Source of the DNA: a virus
Strand: one strand, 5' to 3'
Virus record (IMG/VR): IMGVR_UViG_3300008448_000040
Span: 1 to 64,000 of that record
Length of the DNA stretch: 64,000 nucleotides
The notes beneath the pieces are model-generated. The model was not told the origin of the DNA. It saw nothing but the letters and a program-made list of their open reading frames with translations, and made no database searches. A program made the position numbers and the translations under genes. Within the stretch, counting starts at the first letter, position 1. Each line of letters opens with the position of its first letter. Shown here in pieces: positions 1,747 to 59,571 of this stretch.

Positions 1747-3086
1747 TTTTTATAAATCTCCAATAATTTTTTCAATTCAGAAATAGGCTCTTTCCATGTT
1801 CTTGGTTTTACTTGTCTAAGTATTTCAACATGATCTCCATACCATGGACTATATTTGGATGAATGACACCATGTATAATAATGAGAAATAGGTGTAAAGA
1901 TATAAGTCTTCTTTCCCATAGCAGCTGCAGCATGTGCAATTGATGTGCATGACGTAATAACAAAATCTAAATCATCTATTACTTTTAGAGTAACCTCAAA
2001 GTTTTTAAGATCCTTTGATATATCTATCAGTCCAGGAAAATCATTGAATTGATCAAACCCATCCTCTTTTTGAAGGCAATAAAAATCAGCATCAATGTGT
2101 TTTACAGCTTGATAAATTTCTCTGACAGGTAATGTTCTATGAAGATCTTGATCATAGAGAGGATTACCTTGCCATCTGATACCAATCTTTAATCTATCAC
2201 TTTTTTTGACTGGACTAACAACATTCTTATCAGCTGAGATGTACGGACCATACCATAAGTCTTTATACTCCATGTTAAGATAAACTGGAATATCCATTGT
2301 GTGAGTCCACAATACCTCACTTTCATCATACCTAATGTAATCCATGTTGTTGATTACATCGAATCCTAATCTTTTGAATATCTGTGTTGTTTGCTTGTTT
2401 GTAGAGAACCAGATAGGTTTCATACCAAGATCTCTGATTGTTTTCATGAACCTGAAATTGACGAACTCGTCCCCAAGTCCTGCTTCAGCTAATAAGATTA
2501 TCTTTTTGTTCTTGACAATCTCGCCTTCCCATCTATCAAATCTAAGCTGAGGTTTTTTCCAGATGTCCATCTTTCTACCCTCAAACAAAAACTTTTTGAG
2601 ACCTGGTAGAAATTGATCCTTCATCATTTCATATGTGCCGAGATTGAAAGTCACAGCTGTTCTCTGCTCCTCAGTCAAATCTTTACGATCTAATAAAGAT
2701 CTCAGTATATCCTCAGCCACATCTTTCTCATTATTAAGAAAGTGCGCAAATGACTTACTCATTAGAAGATCAATATTTGATGGATAGATTGATTCGATCA
2801 TTCTATATGTCTTGATTGCCTTTTCAGGTAAATTAGCACTAGCATAAGCTCCAACAAGATTAAATCTTGCCATACTAACGAGTTCTTGATTCTGAGTGCA
2901 TGCTAATGCTTTCTCAGCAAAATCAACAGATTTCTGATACTGTTTAAGTACGTTGTAACATTCTGCTACCTGCATGAATTCTTCAAAAGTAACTGCATGT
3001 TTTGAAAGAACATCGATTAATTTAATTCCAACGTCAAATTCATTGAATCCCTTCAACGTCTCGCATAATGATCTAAGTGTAAGCAT
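1743..3086 (-). CDS. TPR-repeat glycosyltransferase-like protein
   Basis: A 447-residue protein in two parts. Residues 1-150 form helical TPR-like pairs (VAECYNVLKQYQKSVDFAEK, then ARFNLVGAYASANLPEKAI). Residues 190-447 are a GT-B-like domain with LLAEAGLGDEFVNFRFMK (about 198-215) and VITSCTSIAHAAAAMGKK (about 376-393), the donor-site pattern of GT9 and TPR-type transferases. TPR-GT fusions usually recognise a peptide or bulky acceptor through the TPR part. It sits in the sugar operon between a GT2-like and a GT9-like gene. Function is inferred only from fold and context. Confidence 0.68.
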   Translation of the reverse strand: MLTLRSLCETLKGFNEFDVGIKLIDVLSKHAVTFEEFMQVAECYNVLKQYQKSVDFAEKALACTQNQELVSMARFNLVGAYASANLPEKAIKTYRMIESIYPSNIDLLMSKSFAHFLNNEKDVAEDILRSLLDRKDLTEEQRTAVTFNLGTYEMMKDQFLPGLKKFLFEGRKMDIWKKPQLRFDRWEGEIVKNKKIILLAEAGLGDEFVNFRFMKTIRDLGMKPIWFSTNKQTTQIFKRLGFDVINNMDYIRYDESEVLWTHTMDIPVYLNMEYKDLWYGPYISADKNVVSPVKKSDRLKIGIRWQGNPLYDQDLHRTLPVREIYQAVKHIDADFYCLQKEDGFDQFNDFPGLIDISKDLKNFEVTLKVIDDLDFVITSCTSIAHAAAAMGKKTYIFTPISHYYTWCHSSKYSPWYGDHVEILRQVKPRTWKEPISELKKLLEIYKK

Positions 3087-3087
3087 A

Positions 3088-3888
3088 TTAATCTATATTA
3101 ATAGAGTTCCAAAGTGGTTTCCAATCCTTGTAGGGGTCTTTTTCTGCATCGTATTGCATATGAAAGGTTATACTTTCTACGGGGACAACCATTAGTTCCC
3201 CCCTTGTTGTAAACATTTTATTAAGAGTTTCCGGCTCGAGTTTTTCATATAATGGATCTAGATTGAGAAACCGTTCAATAAGGTCCCAATTTCTAATGTA
3301 ATTTTCTATTGATGTAAGGAACGAACAAGATGTATTGAACGATTGTCGCCAGTATCTTTTTCTACCAAGAATCATGCATATTGGTTCTACTTTATATCTA
3401 TCTCTAGGTTGTTCTTGATAATACCAGTGAGGAGGATGATAGCCAGATACAAACGGTAGAGTGTCTGTATCACTGAATATTTGATAAAAGACGTCCACCA
3501 TTTCGAAAACAGCTTCCTTTTCGAATAGGTAATCATCTTGAACTTGCATTCCTATATTCGACCCGTCATTAACTAAATGACTATAACATGCTCGAATGGA
3601 ATTCATTAATCCAGGATTTTCCAAGGTCCTGAATTCTGGTTTAATGAATTCAGACGAATACTTAGTACATAGCTTATGTAAGTAGTCTACAGTTTCTTTG
3701 TCAGATTGATCATCAATGATAGTAACGTGATGAACAGATTCATGAATAGATACACAATGTTCTATGGACTCAAATAAAGAAGTAACACATTTCTTGGTAA
3801 TTTCGGATTTTGAGTCTGAACAAAATCTCTTCTTACCTTGATTGGATTTTGTTGTGCACGTCTGGACAGCATAGTGAACAGGAATCAT
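3088..3888 (-). CDS. GT2-like (GT-A fold) glycosyltransferase
   Basis: A 266-residue protein. After a basic N-terminal segment comes HVTIIDDQSDKETVDYL (about 54-70), like the VDDxSxDxT nucleotide-binding strand of GT2 enzymes. QVQDDY (115-120) probably supplies the DxD-like metal site. The second half, aromatic and Cys-containing, is not recognised. It is separated by 1 bp from the TPR gene and overlaps the methyltransferase by 4 bp, as in one operon. Donor and acceptor are unknown. Confidence 0.62.
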   Translation of the reverse strand: MIPVHYAVQTCTTKSNQGKKRFCSDSKSEITKKCVTSLFESIEHCVSIHESVHHVTIIDDQSDKETVDYLHKLCTKYSSEFIKPEFRTLENPGLMNSIRACYSHLVNDGSNIGMQVQDDYLFEKEAVFEMVDVFYQIFSDTDTLPFVSGYHPPHWYYQEQPRDRYKVEPICMILGRKRYWRQSFNTSCSFLTSIENYIRNWDLIERFLNLDPLYEKLEPETLNKMFTTRGELMVVPVESITFHMQYDAEKDPYKDWKPLWNSINID

Positions 3889-4427
3889 TTATTGACCATC
3901 ATCAAAACTTTAATTTCTTTCACAGCGTTGTTTGTAGACCTAATCATCCACTCAATGTCTTCGTGAGGGGTGTTCTTGTTTCGTTTTATGAATTCTTCGT
4001 CAAAATCATATTCAAATCTTACGATTTCGAAATCAACATCAAGAATGTTTGCATGACCCGACCAATTAGAAAACTTATCCTTCTCGTAATCACTAATCGT
4101 TTTAGATAGTTGTCTTAAAGACTGAACAGTGATGGGACGCACGTGAGTTAGATCACCATAAAATACATCATGAAAGGGATGTGGAACTACTATGTCGATC
4201 AAAGCACCATCTTTACAAACCCTGTAAAGTTCTTTAATCAAGTGAAAAAATCCAGGACCGATATGCTCAAGGATATTGTGAGCTCTGACTTCTTCGATGG
4301 TGTTATCATCAAAAGGTAGCAAGTCTGTTTCCAGATTGACAATATAATCAGGGTTACAAAGTGAATCACTGTCTACATTCAAAAACCCCTCTATTCTTGC
4401 AATGCCACTACCAATATTAATTTTCAT
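3885..4427 (-). CDS. Class I SAM-dependent methyltransferase (type 11-like)
   Basis: A 180-residue protein with INIGSG (residues 3-8) as the SAM-binding motif I, LPFDDNTIEEV (about 36-46) and HNILEHI (about 50-56), then FFHLIKELYRVCKDGALIDI, the usual strand-helix pattern of small Rossmann methyltransferases in polysaccharide clusters. It is the first gene of the leftward sugar operon and follows a strong sigma70-like promoter. It probably O-methylates a sugar, as such enzymes do in capsule and LPS loci; that role is inferred from the neighbours. Confidence 0.8.
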   Translation of the reverse strand: MKINIGSGIARIEGFLNVDSDSLCNPDYIVNLETDLLPFDDNTIEEVRAHNILEHIGPGFFHLIKELYRVCKDGALIDIVVPHPFHDVFYGDLTHVRPITVQSLRQLSKTISDYEKDKFSNWSGHANILDVDFEIVRFEYDFDEEFIKRNKNTPHEDIEWMIRSTNNAVKEIKVLMMVNK

Positions 4428-4521
4428 TATTTTTCACCTTAACAATAAGAATAATTTCCTGCTCTGAACCCTTATATAGTAGATGTCAAATATTACATGA
4501 TAGTTCTAAGCATGCAATAAG

Positions 4522-4550
4522 ATTATATGATACATCTGAAGTGATGTCAA
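4522..4550 (-). promoter_or_regulatory. Consensus sigma70 promoter of the sugar operon
   Basis: On the minus strand TTGACA (4550-4545), a 17 bp spacer and TATAAT (4527-4522) match the sigma70 consensus at all 12 positions. It lies about 95 bp upstream of the methyltransferase start, in the only real gap (4428-4574) of the left arm. It lets host RNA polymerase transcribe the sugar genes independently of the late tail-fibre genes next door. Confidence 0.85.
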
Positions 4551-4574
4551 CAACTAATTGTAAAGTATTATTGT

Positions 4575-5885
4575 CTACATTAGCTCACGATAGGTATTGT
4601 ACCAATCATATGCGTCGCAAGTAAGAGTGGTTGTTTCGCCTCTAAGCATGTATGTTGGACCATCAGCATAAGGTGAAGTTATACTCACGGCTATCCAGTT
4701 ATTTGCACCAGCTATCTGAACAGGGGTTGAATAACAAACGATTCCTGTACCTCCAAGACCAAGTGCTCCCGTACAACAATCATATCCCCATGCCCACGCT
4801 GACCCATCCTTTTTGATAGCGACTACTCCACCAGATCCAGTGACAGTATTTGTAGAACCTGCGTTTGTGTGGATTGCTAAAGTTTTCCATCCAGTTTCAC
4901 CGCAACAAGGTACAACAGGGGTAGATACAAAAGTTCCATCTGAACAATTGATTCCTAGCAATCCATGACAATTGCGTCCCCACGTGTAAAGTTTACCACT
5001 CCTTGTGATAGCTATACCAAAAACTGCTCCTGTTGCTACTTCACAAAAAGTTTCACTTGTTATAACTTGAACAGGCGAGCTTCTGCAGGTGGTAGTACTA
5101 TCTCCTAGCTGTTGAGAAGTGCCATTCAAACCCCAAGACCATAAAGTACCATCACATTTAATAGCAAAAGATCTTTCACCAGTACCCATGTTTTTGGGTA
5201 GTTTGTACCAATCCCTACAAAAACCGATTTGAATTGGAGTTGATTTACTTACAGTTGTACCGTCTCCAAGTTGGCCCACTCTATTTTTACCCCACGCCCA
5301 CAAGGTACCATCAGTCTTTATTCCTAATGTATGCTCGTAACCCATTGCAACTTCTTTCCAGCAGTTACCACCTGTAGTAGGTAACACTTGTACTGGACTA
5401 TTTGCATTACTGACATTACCATTTCCTAAACGACCACAATCATTTCTACCCCATGCCCACAAAGTACCATCACAACGTATTGCAGCAGCTCCACCAGGAA
5501 AAATACAATTACCTTGACCATACACACACTTCCACTTGAATGGAGTGGTGCCAGCAATCAAAGCTGGAGTAGATCTTGCAGTCGCAATTGTACTACAAGT
5601 TCCAAGTAAGCAGTCTGAATTTGTTCCCCAGGCATAAAGTAGTCCTTCGCAATCAATTGCATAATTATTTGTTGGGCTACCTCCAGATATTTGCTTCCAT
5701 CTTATATAATTACCAGAAACTGTTACAGGAGAAAAAGTTGATGAACATGAAGTTACAGTAATATCATTGAATCTAGCACCGGCAGCATACAAACCACCTT
5801 CAACAACAAAATCTTTTCTAATGAATACATCATCAAGATCAGTTGCAAAATCTCCAAACGCGCATGTATAGAATCTACCTGACAT
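4575..5885 (-). CDS. RCC1-repeat beta-propeller tail adhesin 1
   Basis: A 436-residue protein made almost entirely of RCC1-type blades of about 50-60 residues, each with a core like LWAWGRNDCGRLGNG or LYTWGRNCHGLLG. RCC1 repeats form a seven-bladed beta-propeller. The protein is unusually rich in cysteine, often as N-x-C-G within the blade motif. A short non-repeat N-terminus (about 35 residues, with DDVFIRKDF) probably docks on a fibre. It is encoded between fibre genes and a second RCC1 gene, so a receptor-binding or host-surface role is likely. Similarity to eukaryotic RCC1 is structural only. It starts 1 bp inside the stop of the upstream gene. Confidence 0.78.
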   Translation of the reverse strand: MSGRFYTCAFGDFATDLDDVFIRKDFVVEGGLYAAGARFNDITVTSCSSTFSPVTVSGNYIRWKQISGGSPTNNYAIDCEGLLYAWGTNSDCLLGTCSTIATARSTPALIAGTTPFKWKCVYGQGNCIFPGGAAAIRCDGTLWAWGRNDCGRLGNGNVSNANSPVQVLPTTGGNCWKEVAMGYEHTLGIKTDGTLWAWGKNRVGQLGDGTTVSKSTPIQIGFCRDWYKLPKNMGTGERSFAIKCDGTLWSWGLNGTSQQLGDSTTTCRSSPVQVITSETFCEVATGAVFGIAITRSGKLYTWGRNCHGLLGINCSDGTFVSTPVVPCCGETGWKTLAIHTNAGSTNTVTGSGGVVAIKKDGSAWAWGYDCCTGALGLGGTGIVCYSTPVQIAGANNWIAVSITSPYADGPTYMLRGETTTLTCDAYDWYNTYRELM

Positions 5886-7123
5886 TAGAGATATCCTCCT
5901 CTACCTTCTTTCAAAGCTGCAACGGGATTACTACCTGTTGCCACTGATATCCATCCCTTATCGGTTCCAACTCTGACCGGACAACAATATCTATCCAGTA
6001 GCACGGAATTGTTTGTACCAGACATTTTTGCAATACCCCATGCCCACAATGAGCCATCCATAGCAATACCAAACATAGTGTTATTTACACCTTTGCTGAG
6101 AGCTACCCATCTGAAATTATCTGCTAAAGTTGGAACGCTTATACATCTGGTAGTGTCAGAGTCTCCTATACCCCCAATCATATTACAATTACGACCCCAC
6201 ACAAATCTTCTTCCATATTGATCCAGTGCTTGCATTCCTGATCCTTGACCGGAAGGAATAATACATTTGAACTTTGTTCCAGCAGCTATCTGTATTGGCG
6301 TAGATACTTGTCCGGTTGTAGTTCCATCTCCGCGAATACCACAACATGCTAGACCCCATGACCACAAATCGCCTTGATTATCAATTACAAAGGCGGCGCT
6401 ACTTGCAACAGCTATATCTTTAATTCCTCTGTTTGTGAAGCCACATACTTGTACTGGAGATGATGTAGGATTTGTGTTACCATTTCCCACTAACGCTCCA
6501 AATCCCCACGACCACAGAGTACCATCACATCTCACAGCAAGCGCTGAGACAGTACCCATGGCAACTTTATTCCAAAAACCAGACAAACAAGTTGGAAGAG
6601 CCGTATCATTCGTGGTACCTCTACCTAACTGGCCATTACCACCAATTCCCCATGTCCACAAGGAATTATCAGTTCCAAGCGCAGCTACACTATTAAAATA
6701 CCCATCAACACAAAGCCATCCGGCTGGGGAAGCAGCAGTTATTTGAACTGGAGTACAATACATTGTTGCTGTAGCATTATTACCTAACCAGTAACCATCA
6801 CCCCACCCCCAAAGTGTGTTATCTTTTCTGACAGCCCACACGTTGAAAGCACGAGCGTTGAGGTTTCTCCAATTGCTTGATCCATCAAGATTGAAAAAAC
6901 AATAACATGATCTATTAGTCTCTAGGTTTCCCAATGTCATCTGAGGTATACCAGCATCATAGTCACATCCAGTTACCCAAAGCTCGGAAGTAGAAGCTCC
7001 CAAATCTAGGGAAGGATGTAGCCAATTCACATCTTCTTTTTTGACATATATGTCGTCGGGAGTGCAATAATTATAGGCTTCTCCTGGCCAAATAGAATAA
7101 AACCCTGATTTCTTATCGGTCAT
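5885..7123 (-). CDS. RCC1-repeat beta-propeller tail adhesin 2
   Basis: A 412-residue paralogue of its neighbour, with blades such as LWSWGFGALVGNGN, LWTWGIGGNGQLGRG and LWAWGIAKMSG. The N-terminus again carries an acidic-basic D-D-I-Y-V-K-K segment (about residues 23-29), matching DDVFIRK of the first copy, which suggests a shared attachment site. Blade order and the loop residues differ widely from the other two copies, as expected of receptor-binding surfaces under diversifying selection (inference). It follows the 212-residue fibre-associated gene by 12 bp. Confidence 0.77.
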   Translation of the reverse strand: MTDKKSGFYSIWPGEAYNYCTPDDIYVKKEDVNWLHPSLDLGASTSELWVTGCDYDAGIPQMTLGNLETNRSCYCFFNLDGSSNWRNLNARAFNVWAVRKDNTLWGWGDGYWLGNNATATMYCTPVQITAASPAGWLCVDGYFNSVAALGTDNSLWTWGIGGNGQLGRGTTNDTALPTCLSGFWNKVAMGTVSALAVRCDGTLWSWGFGALVGNGNTNPTSSPVQVCGFTNRGIKDIAVASSAAFVIDNQGDLWSWGLACCGIRGDGTTTGQVSTPIQIAAGTKFKCIIPSGQGSGMQALDQYGRRFVWGRNCNMIGGIGDSDTTRCISVPTLADNFRWVALSKGVNNTMFGIAMDGSLWAWGIAKMSGTNNSVLLDRYCCPVRVGTDKGWISVATGSNPVAALKEGRGGYL

Positions 7124-7135
7124 TAATAATCTCTA

Positions 7136-7774
7136 TTAATTATTTTTTAGACTTTGATAAATCTCAACTAGACCATCAAAATCATTACACTCATCTATTT
7201 GATTTGATAGAGATTGTTCCCAATCAAACAGTTCTTGTACACGATCATCAATTTTAGTTATGATATATTTCAAATGTCCTTTATTGAAATCAAGCCACTT
7301 ACCATTAATTTTGAATGGTATCGTAGATTCATCATCTGCCAAAAGATATTTTTGAAAGTAAATAGACCTACTTTCTCTATTGATTGATATTGATATATCT
7401 TCTTCTCCCACCTTCAAATTTAAACTATCATTTTCTCTATTCCATCTCATAGATGATATTGTTGATTTCAATTCAGATTTTATTGAGGTAATACTTTTTG
7501 GCGTACTGGAATAGGTTGCTGTACCCATAGCTTCAGTAAAAGTCCATGTAGGGCCTGTTCTATCATAAAACAAAGGATTTTGATTATGTTCAACAACCTC
7601 TGCAAATCTAATTTTATAACCTTCAACTGGTTCGTAAGGTACCCTTCTGAAGTCTGAGGGATTGAATTGTAGGTCTTCCCCCACTTCAGATTCAAGCGTG
7701 CTCAAGATAAGTCCAGGACTCCATTCTATTGGTCCCAGTAAAACTACATCATCTTTGTCTGTTAAAACGTACAC
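7136..7774 (-). CDS. Fibre-associated protein, DUF4376-like C-terminus
   Basis: A 212-residue protein. The N-terminal part (about 1-80) has short beta-rich segments including WSPGLILSTLE. Residues 155-212 (INGKWLDFNKGHLKYIITKI, then VQELFDWEQSL) resemble the helical tail of DUF4376 proteins, which occur with tail fibres and fibre-assembly proteins. It lies between two RCC1 adhesin genes, so it may be an assembly chaperone or linker for them. The match is by eye and weak. Confidence 0.45.
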   Translation of the reverse strand: MYVLTDKDDVVLLGPIEWSPGLILSTLESEVGEDLQFNPSDFRRVPYEPVEGYKIRFAEVVEHNQNPLFYDRTGPTWTFTEAMGTATYSSTPKSITSIKSELKSTISSMRWNRENDSLNLKVGEEDISISINRESRSIYFQKYLLADDESTIPFKINGKWLDFNKGHLKYIITKIDDRVQELFDWEQSLSNQIDECNDFDGLVEIYQSLKNN

Positions 7775-7786
7775 TTTGATCTCCGT

Positions 7787-9049
7787 TTATAAAATTCCGA
7801 TGGCGGACCAGCCAATGTGGCCGCCTATGTTTTTCCATCCTTTGAATCCACCATTAGTAACTTGGACGGGGGTAGAAACACAAGGGACTGTACTACCAAT
7901 ACCAAGTTGACCACAGTCGTTACGTCCCCAAGCCCACAACGAACCATCTTTTTTAGTAGCTACCATAAAAAAAGAACCTACACCAGGGGTAATCAATGAG
8001 CCGAAACCACCTACGTGGACATCTACCCAATCACAACTACCACTCGTAACACTTGTACAATAACTACTAACTGTTGTACCGTCTCCAAGGTGACCGTAGC
8101 AATTGCATCCCCATGTATAAAGTTCACCATTTCTTGTTATTCCAGCTCCACTTATGAAACCAAGAGATATTTTTCTCCAGCAATTACCCATTTCAGGTAT
8201 TTGAACTGGAATATTATACTCACAACAATACACTCCTTGGTCACTTTGTAAAGGTATATTCCATCCACACTGATTTCTACCCCAAAAGTAAAGATGGCAA
8301 TCAAGACCAATAGCTAATACAGATGTAGAATTCCTGTGGGTCGACAATTCTCTAAATCTTGTATATCTATCTACGTATGAACAATCTTCGACTATCAAAG
8401 CGCTTGAATTTAAAACTGAGCGAGATATACATCCAGCCGGAGGATTATCGTATGGGACACCAGCTGCTAGTAAACCAAAACAATTTCTTCCAAGAGAATA
8501 CCACTCGTAACTCTCGCTCATTAAATAGCATGCATCACAGTTGGAAATAATGCATTTCCAACCAGTACCATACGTTGTAGCTACAGGAGTTGAAAGAGAG
8601 CCACCAACTCCATTTGAACCCCAGCACCAAACTGATCCATCATTTTTGATACCGTACATATTTAATATACCGTCGGGGTAAACATATCTCCAATCACATC
8701 CGACAACCTGAACTGGAGTTGATTTATCTGCTGTACCTGCAAGAGAATTACCTAGTTGGCCACACTGATTACTACCCCATGTAAAAAGTCTTCCATTACA
8801 GGTTATAGCAGCTGTGTTGTAAAACGATCTACAAACAAACTTCCAGTCCATTCCTCGTGAACAAGTTGGAATAGGAACTGTTCCCGTGTAAGTTGTATTA
8901 TTATTACCTAATTGACCAATATTATCGCAAGTTCGAAATGGAGGGGTACCAACGACCATACCCCCACCATATCTTAGCATGAAATCTTTTTTTTGAATAT
9001 ACTGAAAGCCAATTGGATATAATTGATCAGAACCACAATAGAAATTCAT
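7787..9049 (-). CDS. RCC1-repeat beta-propeller tail adhesin 3
   Basis: A 420-residue protein with RCC1 blades (LFTWGSNQCGQLGN, LYTWGCNCYGHLGDG, LWAWGRNDCGQLGIG) and many cysteines. The N-terminal 30 residues (YIQKKDFMLRYGGG) again carry a KKDF-like element as in the other two copies. It overlaps the S74-type long fibre by 4 bp, so it is made together with it and may sit on that fibre. Third member of the adhesin set at 4.6-9.0 kb. Confidence 0.78.
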   Translation of the reverse strand: MNFYCGSDQLYPIGFQYIQKKDFMLRYGGGMVVGTPPFRTCDNIGQLGNNNTTYTGTVPIPTCSRGMDWKFVCRSFYNTAAITCNGRLFTWGSNQCGQLGNSLAGTADKSTPVQVVGCDWRYVYPDGILNMYGIKNDGSVWCWGSNGVGGSLSTPVATTYGTGWKCIISNCDACYLMSESYEWYSLGRNCFGLLAAGVPYDNPPAGCISRSVLNSSALIVEDCSYVDRYTRFRELSTHRNSTSVLAIGLDCHLYFWGRNQCGWNIPLQSDQGVYCCEYNIPVQIPEMGNCWRKISLGFISGAGITRNGELYTWGCNCYGHLGDGTTVSSYCTSVTSGSCDWVDVHVGGFGSLITPGVGSFFMVATKKDGSLWAWGRNDCGQLGIGSTVPCVSTPVQVTNGGFKGWKNIGGHIGWSAIGIL

Positions 9050-39138: not shown

Positions 39139-40068
39139 TCAATCGTCCTCTAACATTTCCTTGAATCTTGCAAAATCATCATCTTCCTTTTCATCCCATG
39201 GAGCAGATTCCTGCTTCTTAGATGCTGGCTTCGCTGTCTTCTGAGGTTTTGGTGTTTCAAACTCTTCTTCATCCTCACCGAGATCTAGTGATGCTGCTGA
39301 TTTAGCAGGTGATGGGCTACTACCATCCAAAGCTAAGACACGATATAACTTTTGCTTTAGATCCTCATAGCTCTTGAAGTGCTTTTCATCAATAATCTCT
39401 TGTAGAGAGAACTCTGACTTCCAGATTCTTTCTAGTTCGCCATCATCGTCGAGTAGAACTGATGGAGAATCAAAACGAGACTCATCATAGTTACGATACT
39501 TCTCAACTGTACGAATCTTTAGTTTGAAGTTAGCACCCTTCCAGAAATCGAAAGGATTGATTGCTTCTTCATCTTCAAACTCAGGATTCATAGCAGCATT
39601 CAACTTATCAAAGATCTTCTTACCAAACTTGAATAAGAACACTTTGCCTTCATTTTCAGGATGTGCTTTATCGCTAACCACATAGATGTTAGCAATGAAA
39701 GTTAGTTTACGTTTTTGTTTACGAACTTGATCTTGATTTGCTTTGATACCAGTAGCCCAAAGCTGGCTGTTGTATTCTGATACTGGGTCAGCTCTACCAA
39801 GTGTGGTCAAAGATCTTTCAATATACCACTGACCACTTGGACCTTGGAAGCCGTGCTCGAAGATACGAACAAACGGAACATCCTCACCATCTGGTGCTGG
39901 TAAGAAACGAATAACAGCAAAACCGTTGCCAGATTTATCTACGCCAGGTGTCCAGAAGCGATTATCAGCTTCACGTGGGGTACCTTCAGGGTTTGCTAGT
40001 TTTGAAACTTGTTGGGTGATTTTGTCCAGGCTGGACTTGGAAGACTTCTTGAGATTTGCGAAAGACAT
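39139..40068 (-). CDS. gp32: Single-stranded DNA-binding protein gp32, without zinc cysteines
   Basis: A 309-residue protein (T4 gp32 is 301). The N-terminal basic arm (MSFANLKKSSKSSLDKITQQ) is the self-association part. FAVIRFLPAPDGEDVPFVRI, then HGFQG...WYIERSLTTLG and ENEGKVFLFKFGKKIFDKLN are the OB-fold core. The acidic C-terminal tail ends EKEDDDFARFKEMLEDD, the partner-docking segment. In T4, three Cys and one His bind zinc after the WYIE strand; here the segment is RSLTTLGRADPVSEYNSQLW with no Cys. Promoter with TATAAT and ribosome site AAGGAG lie upstream. Confidence 0.95.
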   Translation of the reverse strand: MSFANLKKSSKSSLDKITQQVSKLANPEGTPREADNRFWTPGVDKSGNGFAVIRFLPAPDGEDVPFVRIFEHGFQGPSGQWYIERSLTTLGRADPVSEYNSQLWATGIKANQDQVRKQKRKLTFIANIYVVSDKAHPENEGKVFLFKFGKKIFDKLNAAMNPEFEDEEAINPFDFWKGANFKLKIRTVEKYRNYDESRFDSPSVLLDDDGELERIWKSEFSLQEIIDEKHFKSYEDLKQKLYRVLALDGSSPSPAKSAASLDLGEDEEEFETPKPQKTAKPASKKQESAPWDEKEDDDFARFKEMLEDD

Positions 40069-40095
40069 CGTATGCTCCTTGTATAAACGTATGAA

Positions 40096-40124
40096 ATTAT
40101 ATTATCGTATCCACTTAACCATAA
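40096..40124 (-). promoter_or_regulatory. Promoter upstream of gp32
   Basis: A perfect TATAAT (minus strand, 40101-40096) lies 28 bp upstream of the gp32 ATG. At 17 bp spacing the -35 hexamer is TTATGG, a poor match, as in middle promoters that need an activator. It sits in the 56 bp gap between gp59 and gp32. Confidence 0.5.
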
Positions 40125-40715
40125 TTAATGTGTAACGGACTTGGATAATTCCTGATCCATTATACTCTTATATTTATCTAAGTCAACGGTGATAAAAGGT
40201 GAAAGTTTGATTAATTTATTGTATTCAGTTTGCCATACTGGATCAGCCAATGTATCGTTCCAGTACTTGAACAGGTTACCACCATTCAACATATCAATTA
40301 TAATCAGGGTCTCGGAATTGATTTGTTTACCTAGATATCTCTGAAATAACTTTGGATGTTGACCACCTCTCACTTTATACTCATCAACAATATTATCAAT
40401 ACCTTCAATATCTTGTTTGAAGTAGTATGTGAGAGATTGTTTTCTTTTCTGCCACTCTCTGTAGTTTGATTCTGCTGCAGATTCGTTGACAAGCTCACCG
40501 ATCCACATATCACCAGACTGATAAAGGTTAGCTGCTAAGAATCCAATTGGATCTTTATGTTTTGCTAGCTTAGCAAAGAAGTACTTGTCATTACGCTTTT
40601 CGAAAGCAGCGTACGATACTTTCAGCTTACCGTTATACTTAAAGAAGTCGTACGCTTTTGATTGAAAGTGCCGTTTCAAAGCACAATACAATTTATAGGC
40701 GTCATAGTCTGTCAT
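40125..40715 (-). CDS. gp59: Replicative helicase loader gp59
   Basis: A 196-residue protein (T4 gp59 is 217). DAYKLYCALKRHFQSKAYDF, then FKYNGKLKVSYAAFEKRNDK and YFFAKLAKH follow T4 gp59 (V-Y-K-L-Y ... D-x-x-K-Y-N ... A-x-x-K-R-x-D-K-Y-F-F-x-K-L). FISNL of T4 corresponds to FLAANLYQSGDMWIGEL here. It loads gp41 helicase onto gp32-coated forks. The gene order gp33-gp59-gp32 is the T4 order. Confidence 0.93.
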   Translation of the reverse strand: MTDYDAYKLYCALKRHFQSKAYDFFKYNGKLKVSYAAFEKRNDKYFFAKLAKHKDPIGFLAANLYQSGDMWIGELVNESAAESNYREWQKRKQSLTYYFKQDIEGIDNIVDEYKVRGGQHPKLFQRYLGKQINSETLIIIDMLNGGNLFKYWNDTLADPVWQTEYNKLIKLSPFITVDLDKYKSIMDQELSKSVTH

Positions 40716-40948
40716 ATAGGCAGTTGTTTAGTCTTCGGTAAGTAATTGAGATTTTCAGCTTCTGTCTGAATAGATGCTTTAAGTTTGGAGTTACTTTTGA
40801 TGAGTGATGCAGCTGTCTCTATGTCAATACTATTCTTTTCACAAAAATAGACAACTGCATCAATATACTCCATTTTCTTGTCTGAGACAAGTTTTTCTAT
40901 CTCTTTGGAAAATTCAACAATACTTAAAAAGTTGATATCTTGAATCAT
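40712..40948 (-). CDS. gp33: Late transcription coactivator gp33
   Basis: A small 78-residue acidic helical protein (T4 gp33 is 112) ending LNYLPKTKQLPI. The central EYIDAVVYFCEKNSIDIETA is helical and fits the RNA polymerase flap-binding part. The C-terminus should carry the sliding-clamp contact. The assignment rests on size, the LPKTKxLP tail and the position between gp59 and the next gene, exactly as in T4. It implies sliding-clamp-dependent late transcription from NATAAATA promoters. Confidence 0.85.
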   Translation of the reverse strand: MIQDINFLSIVEFSKEIEKLVSDKKMEYIDAVVYFCEKNSIDIETAASLIKSNSKLKASIQTEAENLNYLPKTKQLPI

Positions 40949-41460
40949 TAGTGCCTCGAGTAGAATACATGCATACCAATTCTAACCTTGCGCTTGAGAT
41001 TCCAGTTAGGTTGAACATATGTTGCATGGAAAAACAGTGAACCTTTAGATGGGTCTTTGTCCCTGATGTTCTTGTGATTCTCAGCAATAATCCTTGCCAT
41101 ATTTTTTATTTGACGATACCTTTGTGGATCGCTGATATGTGGATTCTTACCGAGAATACAGACCCATGAAAACTGGCATACTTCACCTAGTTTTTGATGG
41201 ACTACTCCACAAATGGTGGATGGGAAAGTACCATCAGCAACTCTATTCATTGTTACAAAACCAACTGCACTGACGCCTTTATCAGATTCTGATTTGGCTT
41301 CAAAATACATATTTCTTGCAAGGCACTCAATCTGTTTCTCGGAGTACTTTGTTATGAATGGCTGTTCTTGGACTATGTCGTGATCTGCTTCTGAGAACTC
41401 ATTAGCTGCAAATACTAGTGAACATAGACCAAGCAGTGTTATAAGCACTAGCTTTTTCAT
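40948..41460 (-). CDS. SleB-like cell wall hydrolase (endolysin) with signal peptide
   Basis: A 170-residue protein. Residues 1-19 (KKLVLITLLGLCSLVFA) are a signal peptide, cleavable or of the SAR type. ARNMYFEAKSESDKGVSAVG (about 48-67) contains the catalytic Glu54 region of hydrolase_2/SleB lytic enzymes, and GSLFFHATYVQPNW near 145-158 is the second conserved motif (F-x-x-x-x-x-x-P-x-W). It probably degrades peptidoglycan for lysis. A TATAAATA late promoter lies 130-140 bp upstream. It overlaps gp33 by 1 bp. Confidence 0.82.
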   Translation of the reverse strand: MKKLVLITLLGLCSLVFAANEFSEADHDIVQEQPFITKYSEKQIECLARNMYFEAKSESDKGVSAVGFVTMNRVADGTFPSTICGVVHQKLGEVCQFSWVCILGKNPHISDPQRYRQIKNMARIIAENHKNIRDKDPSKGSLFFHATYVQPNWNLKRKVRIGMHVFYSRH

Positions 41461-41610: not shown

Positions 41611-42276
41611 TTAAGAATCATAAACATACTTTTTTCTTTGCTCCAAAACTTCTTTTCCTACTGTTTCGTGTAACTCTCTTAGTTTCTTATCGGAAGGAAT
41701 GTCAGGCTTGATTGCTAGTTGATCTCTGCAGTCATACTTGAATTCTTTGAATGGTCCATCAGCATCGACATAATGTAAGAATATTTGAGTCATTTCGTTT
41801 CCGAGATAATTACCAGGTCTCCAATGAGGAACTTCACATCCTTTGTAAATAGCTAAATCACCTGGTTCTAACAATACCCTTTCTTCTGATCCATCATCTT
41901 GATCGAAACACATCTCCCAGGGAATAGGATCATAGTAAGTATTGAGAGTGACTGAATATTCACAGCTAGGCCTATCAATATGTTTAGGTAAGATAGAGTC
42001 TTTATAGTAAATCCTAAAATAGCTGTAAGTGGGATATAGTTTTTTACCAGAAACCTCTTCTACCATTGGCTTCAAGTACTCTAATAATGTTTCAGTACAA
42101 CTCCAGCCATATGCTTTAAAGCATTGCTTAGTCATTTTATCTGAAAAATAAGTCAAATCGGATTTGTCTACTCCGAGATTGTAGTAGTAAGTGTCTCTGA
42201 AGATCTTAACTTGCTGATTTATGAATGAAGTCAGCTCTGGAGAGATAGCATTTCTAATAATGTGATATTTATTCAT
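41611..42276 (-). CDS. 2OG-Fe(II) oxygenase-like protein
   Basis: 221 residues from the ATG at 42276 (MNKYHIIRNAISPELTSFIN). The frame is open to an ATG at 42333, but that codon lies in the tmRNA coding piece, so the internal start is preferred; neither has a clear ribosome site. LPKHIDRPSCEYSVTL supplies the H-x-D pair, and CEVPHWRPGNYLGNEMTQIF the distal His and a possible 2OG-binding basic residue. This is the double-stranded beta-helix pattern of phage dioxygenases. Substrate unknown. Confidence 0.7.
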   Translation of the reverse strand: MNKYHIIRNAISPELTSFINQQVKIFRDTYYYNLGVDKSDLTYFSDKMTKQCFKAYGWSCTETLLEYLKPMVEEVSGKKLYPTYSYFRIYYKDSILPKHIDRPSCEYSVTLNTYYDPIPWEMCFDQDDGSEERVLLEPGDLAIYKGCEVPHWRPGNYLGNEMTQIFLHYVDADGPFKEFKYDCRDQLAIKPDIPSDKKLRELHETVGKEVLEQRKKYVYDS

Positions 42277-42279
42277 AGA

Positions 42280-42323
42280 GTCAAAAATTAATGCCGGCTG
42301 ATTGGGTAATAAGGACAGCCGGC
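42280..42323 (-). terminator. Probable terminator after the tmRNA
   Basis: On the minus strand GCCGGC (42323-42318) pairs with GCCGGC (42298-42293) across a 19-base loop and is followed by ATTAATTTTTGAC, a T-rich tail. It directly follows the tmRNA coding piece and ends a few bases before the oxygenase ATG. Confidence 0.55.
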
Positions 42324-42610
42324 TAAACCCCATCTAGCAATTTAAGCTGCTAGAGCGTAACGCTCGTCATTTGCGTTTACTATTTTGCTTCATTTACGTC
42401 GATCGCCTGACGTGTTGTCCACTCTCCTACTCCTTGCCCTGTCGAAACCATGTCTGGCCCATCAGAAGTGTCCTGCTGTTCACAGGTCGGGAATTCCAAT
42501 CCTCAGAGCTTTGTTAAACCCTTACATATCACCCTAAACAACACTTCTGGTGGACCAGGCGGGAGTCGAACCCGCGTCCAGAACACCTTTTGGTTTGCTT
42601 CATACAACAA
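42313..42610 (-). ncRNA. ssrA: Circularly permuted (two-piece) tmRNA
   Basis: Read on the minus strand. The acceptor piece comes first and holds GCGGG-TTCGACT-CCCGC (T arm), then acceptor strand CTGGTCC and ACCA ending at 42548. An 87-base intervening loop (42547-42461) follows, then the coding piece from 42460: GGGCCAG, which pairs with CTGGTCC over 7 bp with one G-U. Next come GGTTTCGACAGG (D-loop-like), a hairpin ACGTC/GACGT, the tag reading frame, and the P5-like stem CTAGCA/TGCTAG with the tag stop in its loop. The bases after ACCA and before GGGCCAG pair further (AGAAGTGT/ACACTTCT), which would fold the precursor for processing. Ends near 42610 and 42313 are approximate. It would rescue stalled ribosomes with SmpB. 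Confidence 0.93.
42342..42374 (-). other. tmRNA proteolysis-tag reading frame (ANDERYALAA)
   Basis: Begins at the resume codon GCA after ATAGTAAAC and reads A-N-D-E-R-Y-A-L-A-A-stop. The tag ends with ALAA, the degradation signal read by ClpXP, and the surroundings (AGTAAACGCAAATGACGA) are like proteobacterial tmRNAs (E. coli tag ANDENYALAA). Confidence 0.93.
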
Positions 42611-42615
42611 TATCT

Positions 42616-42706
42616 AACACACTATGTAGGATCCACCCCTACGTAACCGACCAGCGGTATCTTAGTCTTGTCGTCGCCTTTGCCACTTCTAGATGAATAG
42701 TGTGTT
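42616..42706 (-). other. 10 bp inverted repeat enclosing 71 bases, upstream of tmRNA
   Basis: AACACACTAT (minus, 42706-42697) and ATAGTGTGTT (42625-42616) are perfect complements. Inside is a second hairpin GTAGG/CCTAC. The closing stem ends a few bases before the tmRNA acceptor piece and overlaps the C-terminal codons of the Bfd-like gene. Such a closed, multi-helix element is what a riboswitch or processing signal looks like. I do not see a clear match to a known aptamer consensus. Confidence 0.5.
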
Positions 42707-42834
42707 CTTTTTTGCTGTTCACAATATTCTACACAGTGTCCACAGCAAATGTCAACATCTTTGAGTCTGTTCAACAGTTCATCTGATGTATCGTAGTCTG
42801 ATTCTTTGATGTTTCTGCAAACACAAACAATCAT
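42622..42834 (-). CDS. Bfd-like [2Fe-2S] ferredoxin
   Basis: A 70-residue protein. C4-V-C6 and C31-G-H-C34 give the C-x-C...C-x-x-C cluster ligands of bacterioferritin-associated ferredoxin (Bfd). In bacteria Bfd passes electrons to bacterioferritin to release stored iron. The C-terminal part after residue 45 is basic and unlike Bfd; its codons overlap a 10 bp inverted repeat. It lies between a rubrerythrin operon and the tmRNA. The redox/iron role is inferred from the motif. Confidence 0.72.
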   Translation of the reverse strand: MIVCVCRNIKESDYDTSDELLNRLKDVDICCGHCVEYCEQQKRTHYSSRSGKGDDKTKIPLVGYVGVDPT

Positions 42835-42846
42835 GAAAACTCCTAG

Positions 42847-42987
42847 TTATCTTATGTAATTTCCTGTCACGACCACATAGATGAACAAGACCCAGCCAAA
42901 CCTAAGAGCAATATCAAACCAACGCTCAAAGTGATCTAACCAAGTCTTGTTCGTTCCAGAGTTTTTAGATTCTGGTGAGAGACTCAT
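42847..42987 (-). CDS. Small single-span membrane protein
   Basis: 46 residues. A polar N-terminus leads to WLDHFERWFDIALRFGWVLF and IYVVVTGNYIR, one hydrophobic helix of about 18 residues near the end. Its ATG overlaps the rubrerythrin stop (ATGA), so the two are coupled. It is short, but frame, ribosome coupling and hydrophobic pattern support it. Function unknown. Confidence 0.6.
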   Translation of the reverse strand: MSLSPESKNSGTNKTWLDHFERWFDIALRFGWVLFIYVVVTGNYIR

Positions 42988-43418
42988 TGTACTCCTGCGT
43001 TGTAAGCGTCGAGAGTTTTCTTGAACTTACCAGCGTGGCTACGCTCTGCCTTAGCAAGAGTTTCAAACCAGTCAGCAATTTCATCAAACCCTTCATCACG
43101 AGCAGTCTTAGCCATACCAGGGTACATATCAGTATATTCGTGTGTTTCACCCTCGATAGCTGACTCTAGTGCCTGTGCAACATTCTTAACTTCCATACCG
43201 GTTGCAGGATCACCAGCAGCACCGTTCAAAAGGTATTCCATGTGACCATGAGCATGGCCAGTCTCACCTTCAGCTGTATGACGGAACACAGCAGCAACTT
43301 CAGGAGATCCTTCAATGTCAGCCATGTTTGCGAAATATAGATAACGACGGTTTGCTTGTGATTCACCAGCAAAAGCCTCTTTGAGGTTCAACTCAGTTTT
43401 TGTGCCTTTTAAATTCAT
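42984..43418 (-). CDS. Rubrerythrin-type diiron protein without rubredoxin domain
   Basis: 144 residues forming a four-helix bundle with the diiron ligand pattern: [31 protein letters not shown] (E-x-x-H), [18 protein letters not shown] and [11 protein letters not shown] (E-x-x-H). The usual C-terminal rubredoxin domain (two C-x-x-C) is absent, as in erythrin-like short forms. Rubrerythrins reduce peroxide or handle iron. The ribosome site GGAG lies right after the U-tail of a terminator hairpin, so expression depends on read-through or processing. It is coupled to a membrane peptide and followed by a Bfd-like protein. Confidence 0.92.
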
Positions 43419-43480: not shown

Positions 43481-43555
43481 TTAACGATTTGCGATATACA
43501 TTGTGATTTCAAAACCAAAACGCATGTCATTTGCAGTTGGTGTAGTCCACTCCAT
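43481..43555 (-). CDS. pqqA: PqqA-like coenzyme PQQ precursor peptide
   Basis: A 24-residue reading frame with a good ribosome site (AGGAG, 7 bp before ATG). It starts MEWTTPTANDMR and ends FGFEITMYIANR. Bacterial PqqA peptides of 23-24 residues have M-x-W-x-x-P...(D/E)-L-R-x-G-F-E-V-T-M-Y-x-x-x-R; here the Trp, Pro, Arg, Gly-Phe-Glu, Thr-Met-Tyr and terminal Arg are kept. The Glu and Tyr cross-linked by PqqE to make pyrroloquinoline quinone are E16 and Y20. No pqqB-E genes are in the window, so the host would have to do the maturation. Size alone makes chance similarity possible, but the aligned positions are many. Confidence 0.85.
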   Translation of the reverse strand: MEWTTPTANDMRFGFEITMYIANR

Positions 43556-43592
43556 TTTTATCTCCTATTGTAAAAGCCACAATTGGCTAGAC

Positions 43593-43635: not shown

Positions 43636-43758
43636 TTATTTATTGCTAATCCATTCACCTGCTTTTGACAGATCTTTACCTGCACCAGATACAGCACCAC
43701 CAAGGGTGCCGCATCCAGTCATCAAAAGCATCAGAACTACTGATGCTAATTTCTTCAT
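43636..43758 (-). CDS. Entericidin-like small lipoprotein
   Basis: 40 residues: MKKLASVVLMLLMTGCGTLG is a signal peptide with lipobox LMTGC (Cys16), followed by a short mature part GGAVSGAGKDLSKAGEWISN. It resembles entericidin toxin/antidote lipoproteins (T-G-C-N-T...G-x-D-x-x-x-x-G). A ribosome site GGAGG lies 5 bp upstream. It overlaps the DUF932 gene by 4 bp. An outer-membrane spanin (Rz1-like) is an alternative, since these are also tiny lipoproteins. Confidence 0.75.
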   Translation of the reverse strand: MKKLASVVLMLLMTGCGTLGGAVSGAGKDLSKAGEWISNK

Positions 43759-44714
43759 GCTACCTCCGCCATCTCGACAGCGGTCTCAAGTGCCTTCACC
43801 TTCAAAGCCTTGTTAGGACCATACCAAGCCGATGTCAGACGACCTTCTTGTGTACGACCAACAATGTGGTCAGTCAAGAACGTGACAGCATTGAATGCTT
43901 GCCACCAAGATCCCTCAGCAAACTTGGCACCTGGTTGCTCATAGAGAGCTTCCAAAGCCAGCTCTGCAGACTTGGATAGTTCTTTCTTAACTTTGGTCTC
44001 TTCATTCTTAGAACGACCATAGGCATTGACAGGGAAGATACGGCTGAAGTATTCCTTCACAGTCTCTTCCTTGTACTTCTTGCTGCCCAAGAACTTAGCC
44101 ATCTCTTTGTACTTAGCGAGCTTGTCAGAAGCGATACCCAACGTCTGCTTCACTTGGTCACCATCAAATACACGGCGATGGGATACTTTCACCATATTAT
44201 CTGATTTAGTATTGAGTGACAGCGTAAGAGTATTGTTGCAGACCACGCGTATCGGAGTGAAACGAACGTCAATAGACTGACCAAACTTGTGAGGTAGAGT
44301 GAAAAGTAGATATGACTCCACAGTGTCACCATTGAATACATCAAAGCTCTCCTTGATCTTAGCCAGTGCCCACACGATCTGACCATTTTTCAATGAACCA
44401 GCTGTGTGCATTTCCATGTCACCAGAGCATACGAAGTCGTTAAAGAACTCAAATGCTTCGTGATTCTGCATAGGATTCCAATCTTGCGACACAACATCAA
44501 GGATTTTACCATCAGTTGAGCGTACTAGAGCGTCCTTGCCAGTGTAAACTTGCTTGTCAAACACTTTAGCAAACGTAGGAATCTTCTGAACTTGCCAGTC
44601 AAGACCAGCTGCCTCGAGCATTTGATGTGGTGAAAGGTCAGAAGGAACAGGCTTACCAAGACCATGCCATGGAGTTGCGCCTGCGTATGCCATTGTTTCG
44701 ACTAGATGAGCCAT
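43755..44714 (-). CDS. DUF932 (phage/plasmid TIGR03299-like) protein
   Basis: A 319-residue protein. AHLVETMAYAGATPWHGLGK at the N-terminus and VVSQDWNPMQNHEAFEFFND (about 73-92) are the DUF932 signature. TPIRVVCNNTLTLSL (about 155-169) and QEGRLTSAWYGPNKALK near the C-terminus complete it. The family is widespread in phages and plasmids with no settled function. A promoter of the TGTTGAC type lies 50 bp upstream. Confidence 0.85.
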   Translation of the reverse strand: MAHLVETMAYAGATPWHGLGKPVPSDLSPHQMLEAAGLDWQVQKIPTFAKVFDKQVYTGKDALVRSTDGKILDVVSQDWNPMQNHEAFEFFNDFVCSGDMEMHTAGSLKNGQIVWALAKIKESFDVFNGDTVESYLLFTLPHKFGQSIDVRFTPIRVVCNNTLTLSLNTKSDNMVKVSHRRVFDGDQVKQTLGIASDKLAKYKEMAKFLGSKKYKEETVKEYFSRIFPVNAYGRSKNEETKVKKELSKSAELALEALYEQPGAKFAEGSWWQAFNAVTFLTDHIVGRTQEGRLTSAWYGPNKALKVKALETAVEMAEVA

Positions 44715-57774: not shown

Positions 57775-58073
57775 TAACCTAACCCATGTTTCTTTTTAAC
57801 TTGATCAGTTTTCACTTGAGCAGCTGTCCTTGTAACAGTTTTATTTGCCAATTGACTACTGGGATGCGCTTCTGCAACTTTAGAAATAACTTCTTTGAAA
57901 CCAGAATCGGTTTTGATGCCTCCCACACCACCAATTATGTTAAGTGTATCAGAGGGATCAAAGTATCTTTGGAGATGAGGATTGTCTTTGATGAACGAAT
58001 CATAGTCAGATATACGGACTATATGTTCCTCAACATTATTCGAAAGTGTATTTAGGAAAGTATACTTTGCCAT
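57774..58073 (-). CDS. Conserved small phage protein, FmdB-like N-terminus
   Basis: 99 residues. MAKYTFLNTLSNNVEEHIVR then ISDYDSFIKDNPHLQRYFDP is the N-terminal pattern of FmdB-type small proteins, without the C-x-x-C zinc ribbon. The C-terminal half is polar (SGFKEVISKVAEAHPSSQLA, then KTDQVKKKHG). It is common in T4-like marine phages as I recall. The start overlaps the carbamoyltransferase end by 38 bp. Confidence 0.62.
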   Translation of the reverse strand: MAKYTFLNTLSNNVEEHIVRISDYDSFIKDNPHLQRYFDPSDTLNIIGGVGGIKTDSGFKEVISKVAEAHPSSQLANKTVTRTAAQVKTDQVKKKHGLG

Positions 58074-59571
58074 ATTGTTCAGTATAAATTTTGTTACCTA
58101 TCACAAGATAGTCTAGATGTGTATTGTAATAAAGTTGTTCAGCGTTATGGGTATAGCCAGCAATAGGCTTTCCACCGAGATTCAAACTTGTATTGAGAAG
58201 AACAGGACATCCTGTCAACTCATGAAACTTCTCTAATAACTTTCTGAAGTGGCCACTATCAGGTTCTACAGTCTGTACCCTGCACGTACCATCAACATGA
58301 GTAATAGCATCTAGTTTATCAGTCTTGGCTTTACCAACATAAAGCATGTATGGGTTATCAAACTCTAGATCAAAATACTCTTCACGATATTCTGAAAGAA
58401 TAGAAGCACCAAATGGTCTGTACTGCTCTCTCTTTTTGATCTTGTTGATAATCTCTCTTCCGTTTTGTATTCTTGGATCCATTAGAATAGATCTATTACC
58501 AAGAGCTCTGGGACCAATCTCCCCACTACCTTGATACCAAGCTACTGTTTTGCCATGTGATAGAACTTTTGCTACAAAGTCTATCACATCGTCTGTGGGC
58601 TCATCGCTAGGAGCTTCATCTGTCTGACTGAATGGAAAATTGGTAAGTTCAATTCTAGGTTGATCATATTTTCTTCTAAGCCACTCCACTGCACCTATGC
58701 TGATGCCATCATCTGCTGAGTGGGGTAAGATAACTAAGTTCTTGAAATGTTTCTTGAGAACAGTGTTCCATATTACATTCTGAGCAACTCCACCAGAATA
58801 AAAAATGACGTCATCTGGCTTACAGTGTTTTTGGAAAAACGATAGAATAACTTCGCCAGCTTTAACATGAACTGTATTGATCCAGTCAAGCATGCGTTGT
58901 TTACCCAGCAAAGGATCTCCAATATAGTCATTCCATCTATTAAAGTTGAACAACATCTTGGCGTTGTAGATGTCGGCAAAACTTAGTGTGTCAAAATACT
59001 TTTTATCAAACTTACCATATGACTGGAGTCCCATGACTTTACCAGCAATATCTACTTCATGTCCGTAGCTAATGCCGGCAAACTTTCCAAACTCATTCAT
59101 TAACAACCCAATCGACCCATGTGCCCATACATCACCCGCTTCGACAAGATTACCTTTCTTGAATACTGACCAAGGAACTTCATTGTCACCAATACCATCA
59201 ATGATAATTGAGACGTCAGGTTCCATATATGGAACATAACTTAAGGCGTGAGCATAGTGATGGTCTATCTGATAGACATCACATGGAACAGGAAACCCCG
59301 TGCATTTTTTGACTAGATCAGATGAAGCACCTTGAGCGTCAGAAATAAACTCGTTGATTGTAGTCTCTTCCATAGAGATACATATTTTATCTATCTCATC
59401 AACAGAGACTCCGAACGCTCGTTTAACATCACCCCTCCAATCAAATAGACCCATTGAAGCGTGATGCTTTTCTTGTTTACTTCTTTCAGTTTTGTGGTAC
59501 CTTAACTTTTCACCATCATATAAAGTAAAGTTACTATCATGAGCGTTGATTCTCAATCCCAATAATTTCAT
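58036..59571 (-). CDS. NodU/TobZ-type carbamoyltransferase
   Basis: A 511-residue protein. LGLRINAHDSNFTLYDGEKL at the N-terminus has the family (G)HDS; HHYAHALSYVP (about 102-112) is the H-H-x-x-H-A metal motif. FYSGGVAQN (about 258-266) and SGEIGPRALGNRSILMDPRI (about 351-370) are the Kae1-like and C-terminal motifs. It makes carbamoyl esters on a sugar or other hydroxyl from carbamoyl phosphate and ATP. Similar enzymes occur in cyanophage-type phages. Acceptor unknown; a link to surface sugars or DNA modification is possible. Confidence 0.88.
   Translation of the reverse strand: MKLLGLRINAHDSNFTLYDGEKLRYHKTERSKQEKHHASMGLFDWRGDVKRAFGVSVDEIDKICISMEETTINEFISDAQGASSDLVKKCTGFPVPCDVYQIDHHYAHALSYVPYMEPDVSIIIDGIGDNEVPWSVFKKGNLVEAGDVWAHGSIGLLMNEFGKFAGISYGHEVDIAGKVMGLQSYGKFDKKYFDTLSFADIYNAKMLFNFNRWNDYIGDPLLGKQRMLDWINTVHVKAGEVILSFFQKHCKPDDVIFYSGGVAQNVIWNTVLKKHFKNLVILPHSADDGISIGAVEWLRRKYDQPRIELTNFPFSQTDEAPSDEPTDDVIDFVAKVLSHGKTVAWYQGSGEIGPRALGNRSILMDPRIQNGREIINKIKKREQYRPFGASILSEYREEYFDLEFDNPYMLYVGKAKTDKLDAITHVDGTCRVQTVEPDSGHFRKLLEKFHELTGCPVLLNTSLNLGGKPIAGYTHNAEQLYYNTHLDYLVIGNKIYTEQYGKVYFPKYTFE

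Follow-up and report, generated by a model that had tools for sequence, protein, structure and literature searches.

We found that a phage genome encodes PqqA, the precursor peptide of PQQ, and that the gene, judged by its sequence and conservation, is a genuine and selected phage pqqA. Public data contain hundreds to thousands of related phage copies, hardly any of which carry an annotation. The window analysed here is a stretch of 64,000 nucleotides, positions 1 to 64,000 of the 78,724-base IMG/VR record IMGVR_UViG_3300008448_000040. For phage pqqA we observed its identity, its phage context, its conservation, its solitary state, its host-like sequence and its own terminator. With a probability of about 0.75, we propose that the phage supplies the consumed, stoichiometric part of PQQ synthesis while the host enzymes persist; a sequence-only reading of this DNA had already suggested that the phage raises the supply of precursor to host PQQ synthesis, and this is still the best explanation.

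The open reading frame occupies positions 43481-43555, exactly where it had been placed before, and lies on the minus strand, with the ATG at 43555 and the stop codon at 43481. Its product, MEWTTPTANDMRFGFEITMYIANR, has 24 residues, and the plus-strand translation of the same interval is unrelated to PqqA. When the peptide was compared with Pfam PF08042 we obtained 37.9 bits (E 1.7e-9; cut-off 21.1 bits) over the full profile (1-19/19), and with the NCBIfam equivalog model TIGR02107 39.3 bits (E 3.9e-10; cut-off 20 bits), also over its full length (1-21/21). Two curated models thus identify the gene as a genuine PqqA; the profile search that had been proposed as a check gave a significant, full-length match, and the PqqA-like motifs listed from the sequence are present, including E-x-x-x-Y in the form E-I-T-M-Y. 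The Glu and the Tyr of this motif are the residues turned into PQQ. A six-frame profile search of the whole record returned this single PqqA match (E 1.2e-9), and the same search of 14 control genomes returned none. A Shine-Dalgarno-like AGGAGA is found at 43561..43566 (minus strand), 5 bases before the ATG, and a terminator-like hairpin, TGAGCCCCTCACGGGGCTCA-TTTTTTT, at 43454-43435 (minus strand), 27-46 bases past the pqqA stop and ahead of the next gene, which encodes a rubrerythrin. No sigma-70 promoter for the window pqqA scored above threshold, and promoter-like motifs upstream of viral pqqA were only modestly enriched among the matches listed.

The large baseplate and tail genes of the record, together with RNase H and with gp32 and gp59, mark it as a T4-like phage. 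The features around pqqA that are given below with coordinates are all on the minus strand. The T4-like replication region (39139..40715) contains gp32 at 39139-40068 (PF08804, 151.5 bits) and gp59 at 40125-40715 (PF08993, 58.7 bits). The two conserved flanks of the pqqA site, as defined by synteny, are a cell wall hydrolase gene at 40948..41460 (PF07486, 74.8 bits) and a DUF932 gene at 43755..44714 (PF06067, 138.4 bits). Directly downstream of pqqA lies the rubrerythrin gene (42984..43418; PF02915, 96.1 bits), and upstream of it a gene for an entericidin-like lipoprotein of 40 residues (43636..43758), whose PF08085 score of 24.4 bits is barely over the cut-off of 23.3. The order DUF932 - pqqA - cell wall hydrolase - gp59 is common to seven IMG/VR relatives, which carry pqqA at the same site (L011, L072, L085, L094, L096, L107 and L108), whereas other relatives, for example L424, L452 and L455, have the same flanks without pqqA, indicating that the gene was gained or lost at a conserved site. 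Among 50 records related by gp32, one gave a PqqA profile match. The gene is therefore a trait of some phage lineages, which fits host dependence. Phage portal, UvsX and tail proteins are also encoded near several of the other viral pqqA copies. The profile score, the conservation at the same locus in relatives and the independent features of the 240 other listed viral copies, given below, together make the window pqqA more than a chance reading frame. When the closest cultured phage was sought with baseplate gp6, we obtained Caulobacter phage Cr30 at only 40% identity, which is no useful relative. Elsewhere in the window, three RCC1-type repeat proteins, perhaps adhesins, are encoded among the tail genes (4575-9049, minus strand); the repeats of 4575-5885 were confirmed by Pfam and the remaining two proteins were judged by eye. 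A carbamoyltransferase gene (58036-59571, minus strand; PF16861, PF02543) may serve DNA or sugar modification.

No pqqB, C, D or E gene is found near the window pqqA, and no PQQ-repeat dehydrogenase is encoded anywhere in the whole record. The same solitary state was observed in all the viral loci listed, since none of 352 had pqqB, C, D or E near the gene, in flanks that are partial, compared with 63 of 80 cellular control loci where pqqB-E was nearby. The missing link to pqqBCDE does not exclude membership in the PqqA family, because separate copies are normal in methylotroph genomes. Indeed, Methylophilaceae have 3 to 12 pqqA genes for usually one pqqBCDE (PMC4109929), solitary copies are present in their genomes (PMC4109929, PMC9851590), and in one PQQ producer grown on methanol, three of the five pqqA copies are separate (PMC9851590). 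The window peptide resembles bacterial PqqA in sequence, length, E-x-x-x-Y, invariant W/P/R/G/T, ribosome site and own terminator, and differs in being phage-encoded without pqqB-E nearby. What the sequence-only reading had said of this locus thus holds: it had taken the gene to be phage-encoded, and gp32, gp59, RNase H and the cell wall hydrolase surround it; it had described a good ribosome site, an own terminator and the absence of pqqB-E nearby, all of which we found; and it had named absence from close relatives as a refutation, whereas seven relatives have pqqA at the same site.

Viral pqqA is abundant in IMG/VR. The PqqA core, written as the degenerate pattern G-[FL]-E-[IVM]-T-x-Y-[IVM]-[AS]-N-R, matched at least 120 stretches, and at least 120 matches were likewise obtained with a second pattern, which describes peptides that end in Y-V-x-N-K. 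Part of the conservation of these peptides follows from the search patterns; however, neither pattern demanded the W..P motif, the stop codon or the ribosome site, which are thus independent of them. Among the matches listed, a stop codon directly follows the core in 240 of 240, and in the 234 copies with enough upstream sequence to be testable, W..P is kept in 234 and a ribosome site is present in 233. In a further scan, stop and W..P were found in 112/112 matches. W, P, R, G, E, T and Y are invariant in the 211 distinct viral sequences among the matches listed. When 4,000 random pairs of the viral copies listed were compared, codon differences of a single base were synonymous in 23,740 cases and not in 6,062; for the first ten codons, which lie outside the first pattern, the figures were 7,747 and 5,040. 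A strict hairpin terminator within 60 nt of pqqA was detected in 93 of the 240 viral copies listed, compared with 57 of 135 cellular pqqA genes and 0-1.4% at control offsets; these hairpins suggest a short independent transcript. A narrower version of the second pattern, which fits 7 of the 120 second-pattern matches listed, gave 119 matches in IMG/VR, from which we estimate, presuming that the matches listed are representative, about 2,000 contigs of the Methylophilaceae-like (Y-V-x-N-K) type, with a 95% range of 1,000 to 5,000. Four contigs (L041, L051, L053 and L109) encode a Pseudomonas-type PqqA (MWKKPAFIDMRLGLEVTLYISNR or similar) with no pqqB-E in the available flank, and in one of these contigs pqqA lies beside a J-type tail protein gene. 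These may be genes of phages, edges of prophages or DNA of a host; the 240-match totals include them, and no separate claim is built on them.

Cultured phages carry the gene as well. We compared three different PqqA peptides with 50,697 phage records by tblastn, and all three queries returned the same 12 records. Nine are from Methylophilales/Methylophilaceae phages (four Melnitz records, P19250A, Venkman, MEP301, MEP401 and MEP402), representing every methylophage isolate named in the literature found, though not strictly all cultured methylophages; another true carrier is a podovirus from Manatee Spring. Two contigs of Acinetobacter phage MD-2021a were treated as mislabelled bacterial DNA and left out of the count, because pqqBCDE and a polyphosphate kinase gene adjoin their pqqA; the contig of that title under CAKLQF020000010.1 (L249) contains a bacterial pqqABCDE operon and ppk. 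The pelagiphages in the same collection gave no PqqA match, including Mosig and HTVC008M, which are the nearest relatives of Melnitz according to the literature. As in the window, PqqA of the cultured methylophages is solitary and was found here unannotated; it ends in VMNK, VLNK or IMTR as opposed to IANR in the window, and belongs to other phage lineages. None of the nine methylophage records nor that of the spring podovirus has a PqqA annotation. The expectation that annotation would easily miss so tiny a gene is borne out, since five of the nine methylophage records (P19250A, Venkman, MEP301, MEP401 and MEP402) have no feature annotated at the pqqA site, and in the Melnitz record examined an opposite-strand reading frame is called there. 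PQQ is absent from the papers on MEP301, MEP401/402 and Venkman, and in the Melnitz paper it appears solely as a medium supplement.

The sequence-only reading did not recall a described phage PqqA; on this point it has to be revised. Coutinho et al. reported in 2020 PqqA and methanol dehydrogenase in T4-like phages of Lake Baikal methylotrophs (PMC7678222), and a 2026 reservoir study reported viral pqqA, pqqD and pqqE in sediments (PMC13188868). The Baikal phage VP_266 resembles the phage of the window, as it is a T4-like phage of a betaproteobacterium with PqqA, for which a boost of PQQ was proposed, but it also encodes a methanol dehydrogenase (PMC7678222), which the window record does not. 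The same paper stated that P19250A lacks PqqA and methanol dehydrogenase genes (PMC7678222); P19250A does carry an unannotated pqqA, which corrects this statement for PqqA.

The peptide of P19250A, MWTTPAATEMRFGFEVTMYVMNK, is identical to that of Methylophilaceae-like genomes of about 1.3 Mb. Six such genomes, with two or three pqqA genes each, mostly encode this very peptide, and over 72 bases, 3 to 8 differences separate the P19250A gene from the cellular copies sampled. In these small genomes PqqA ends in VMNK/VCNK. By contrast, the window PqqA ends in IANR, the type of non-Methylophilaceae Burkholderiales such as Thauera and Comamonadaceae, and the best Burkholderiales peptide matches it at 20 of 22 residues. 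The window also contains a two-piece (permuted) tmRNA of betaproteobacterial type at 42251..42661 (minus strand; ARAGORN; RF04321, 144.9 bits; RF01850, 140 bits). From the tmRNA and the PqqA type, the host of the window phage is likely a PQQ-making betaproteobacterium and not evidently a methylotroph. We also tried to name the host more precisely. The best cellular matches of the phage tmRNA reach 75-80% over about 110 bases, so that only "betaproteobacterial" is safe, and rubrerythrin, present in 229 of 399 Burkholderiales genomes at up to 78% identity, is not discriminating. The tag of the tmRNA was read as ANDERYALAA, and the tmRNA overlaps the ends of two predicted open reading frames (41611-42333 and 42622-42834).

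PqqA is consumed one-for-one for each PQQ made, while the enzymes of the pathway are catalytic and persist. PqqA would therefore run out once host transcription stops, and fresh PqqA would be the first component to be exhausted should the phage silence or degrade the chromosome of its host. We propose that pqqA is transcribed in infection as a small unit closed by its own hairpin and then translated, and that host PqqD, PqqE, PqqB and PqqC together with a protease convert the phage peptide to PQQ, the Glu and Tyr of E-x-x-x-Y being cross-linked and then trimmed out. A single 75-base phage gene would then suffice to keep the PQQ dehydrogenases of the periplasm supplied with PQQ. Expression in infection, processing by host PqqDE and a benefit to the phage are what the sequences lead us to expect. 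The recipient would be XoxF-type methanol dehydrogenase in Methylophilaceae hosts and some PQQ enzyme in the host of the window phage. Hosts multiply pqqA alone, the same asymmetry as in phages that take the substrate only; against the supply view, hosts with 3 to 12 pqqA genes may not be short of PqqA. Thus pqqA-carrying phages probably top up a supply that the infected host keeps using up. Cyanophage psbA offers a parallel: it encodes the photosystem II protein D1, the one fast-turnover protein of the photosystem, which the phage supplies. In both cases the phage would provide the component used fastest, and host energy metabolism would continue in infection; D1, however, is a damaged protein and PqqA a consumed substrate.

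OM43 has a high demand for PQQ, as among its transcripts xoxF always ranks first in abundance (PMC5120137). One phage contig, G422 (L500), encodes pqqA together with a PQQ dehydrogenase of the methanol/ethanol type (1084-2955; 624 residues; TIGR03075, 607.9 bits); the gene next to the dehydrogenase encodes a curlin-like repeat protein. Its DYDG motif presumably marks a lanthanide-dependent XoxF type. This was the only one of 50 pqqA-carrying records examined with a PQQ dehydrogenase above cut-off, and in the annotated collection an enzyme of this type is encoded by no record that is truly from a phage. G422 resembles Baikal VP_266 in having pqqA and a PQQ dehydrogenase on one phage (PMC7678222).

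Methanol oxidation may not be the use to which the extra PQQ is put. It is possible, although we hold it doubtful, that PQQ is raised for another PQQ dehydrogenase (ethanol, glucose or other alcohol) or as an antioxidant together with rubrerythrin. Rubrerythrin is a peroxide-reducing enzyme. Its gene lies beside or near pqqA in 17 of the IANR-type phage loci listed and in none of the VMNK type, and the IANR ending of the window peptide is itself that of non-Methylophilaceae Burkholderiales and not VMNK/VCNK. These loci include the window (42984-43418, minus strand), L020, L027, L045, L095, L100, L101 and L116, and in several of the 17 the two genes are directly adjacent. Yet the pairing is found in a minority of loci, the cultured carriers are all phages of methylotrophs, and the sole clear PQQ enzyme on a phage contig with pqqA is of the methanol/ethanol type. 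The pqqA-linked rubrerythrins are mostly 70-94% identical and occur in both gene orders and in differing phage contexts; the pelagiphage Mosig encodes a rubrerythrin of 71% identity but gave no pqqA match.

The peptide itself could also act in phage-host conflict, either as a decoy for PqqD/PqqE or by yielding PQQ that shuts a PQQ-gated receptor against competing phages. In E. coli the receptor PqqU is closed by PQQ, and phage IsaakIselin is blocked (PMC12124388); moreover, a marine PqqA family is co-expressed with defence systems (PMC11118758). We regard this as improbable, since a decoy needs neither Glu nor Tyr, yet both are invariant in the 211 distinct viral sequences listed, and the phage peptide can equal that of the host, as in P19250A; the receptor effect is known only for E. 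coli, which is itself no PQQ maker. Even further from what we observed is the idea that the gene is host DNA passively left in the phage, or a reading frame that arose by chance. Methylophilaceae do hold several solitary pqqA genes that a phage could acquire by accident (PMC4109929), but profile E-values near 1e-9, the hundreds of viral copies in which start region, ribosome site, W..P and stop are all intact, the synonymous excess and the syntenic conservation make this very hard to believe.

The supply of a consumed precursor is therefore the reading that we retain. Phage PqqA was previously known from scattered metagenomic reports. As far as the open-licence literature reaches, it is new how widespread the gene is, that every methylophage isolate record found has it, that a phage peptide is identical to a host-type one, that the gene consistently stands alone, that it has a terminator, and that it extends to a phage whose host is probably not one of the Methylophilaceae. 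On balance we favour, as one joint statement, that pqqA is among the commonest and most overlooked auxiliary genes of aquatic phages, gained by several unrelated lineages infecting PQQ-making betaproteobacteria, always as the lone consumed substrate and often host-matched, and that it defines a "consumable precursor" class that outlasts host shut-off and reaches beyond methylotrophs, the window phage being an example. Surveys of auxiliary metabolic genes that set a minimum length miss the smallest of them. The idea is testable now, since some of these phages are in culture together with their hosts: Melnitz and Venkman with H5P1, and MEP301 and MEP401/402 with OM43 strains. Our results suggest that phages of planktonic methylotrophs carry pqqA very commonly, perhaps almost universally, and that the gene occurs in other phages too. 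When OM43 and related bacteria oxidize methanol they carry out a step of the aquatic carbon cycle, and a phage gene that keeps this step going in infection would therefore matter for flux models.
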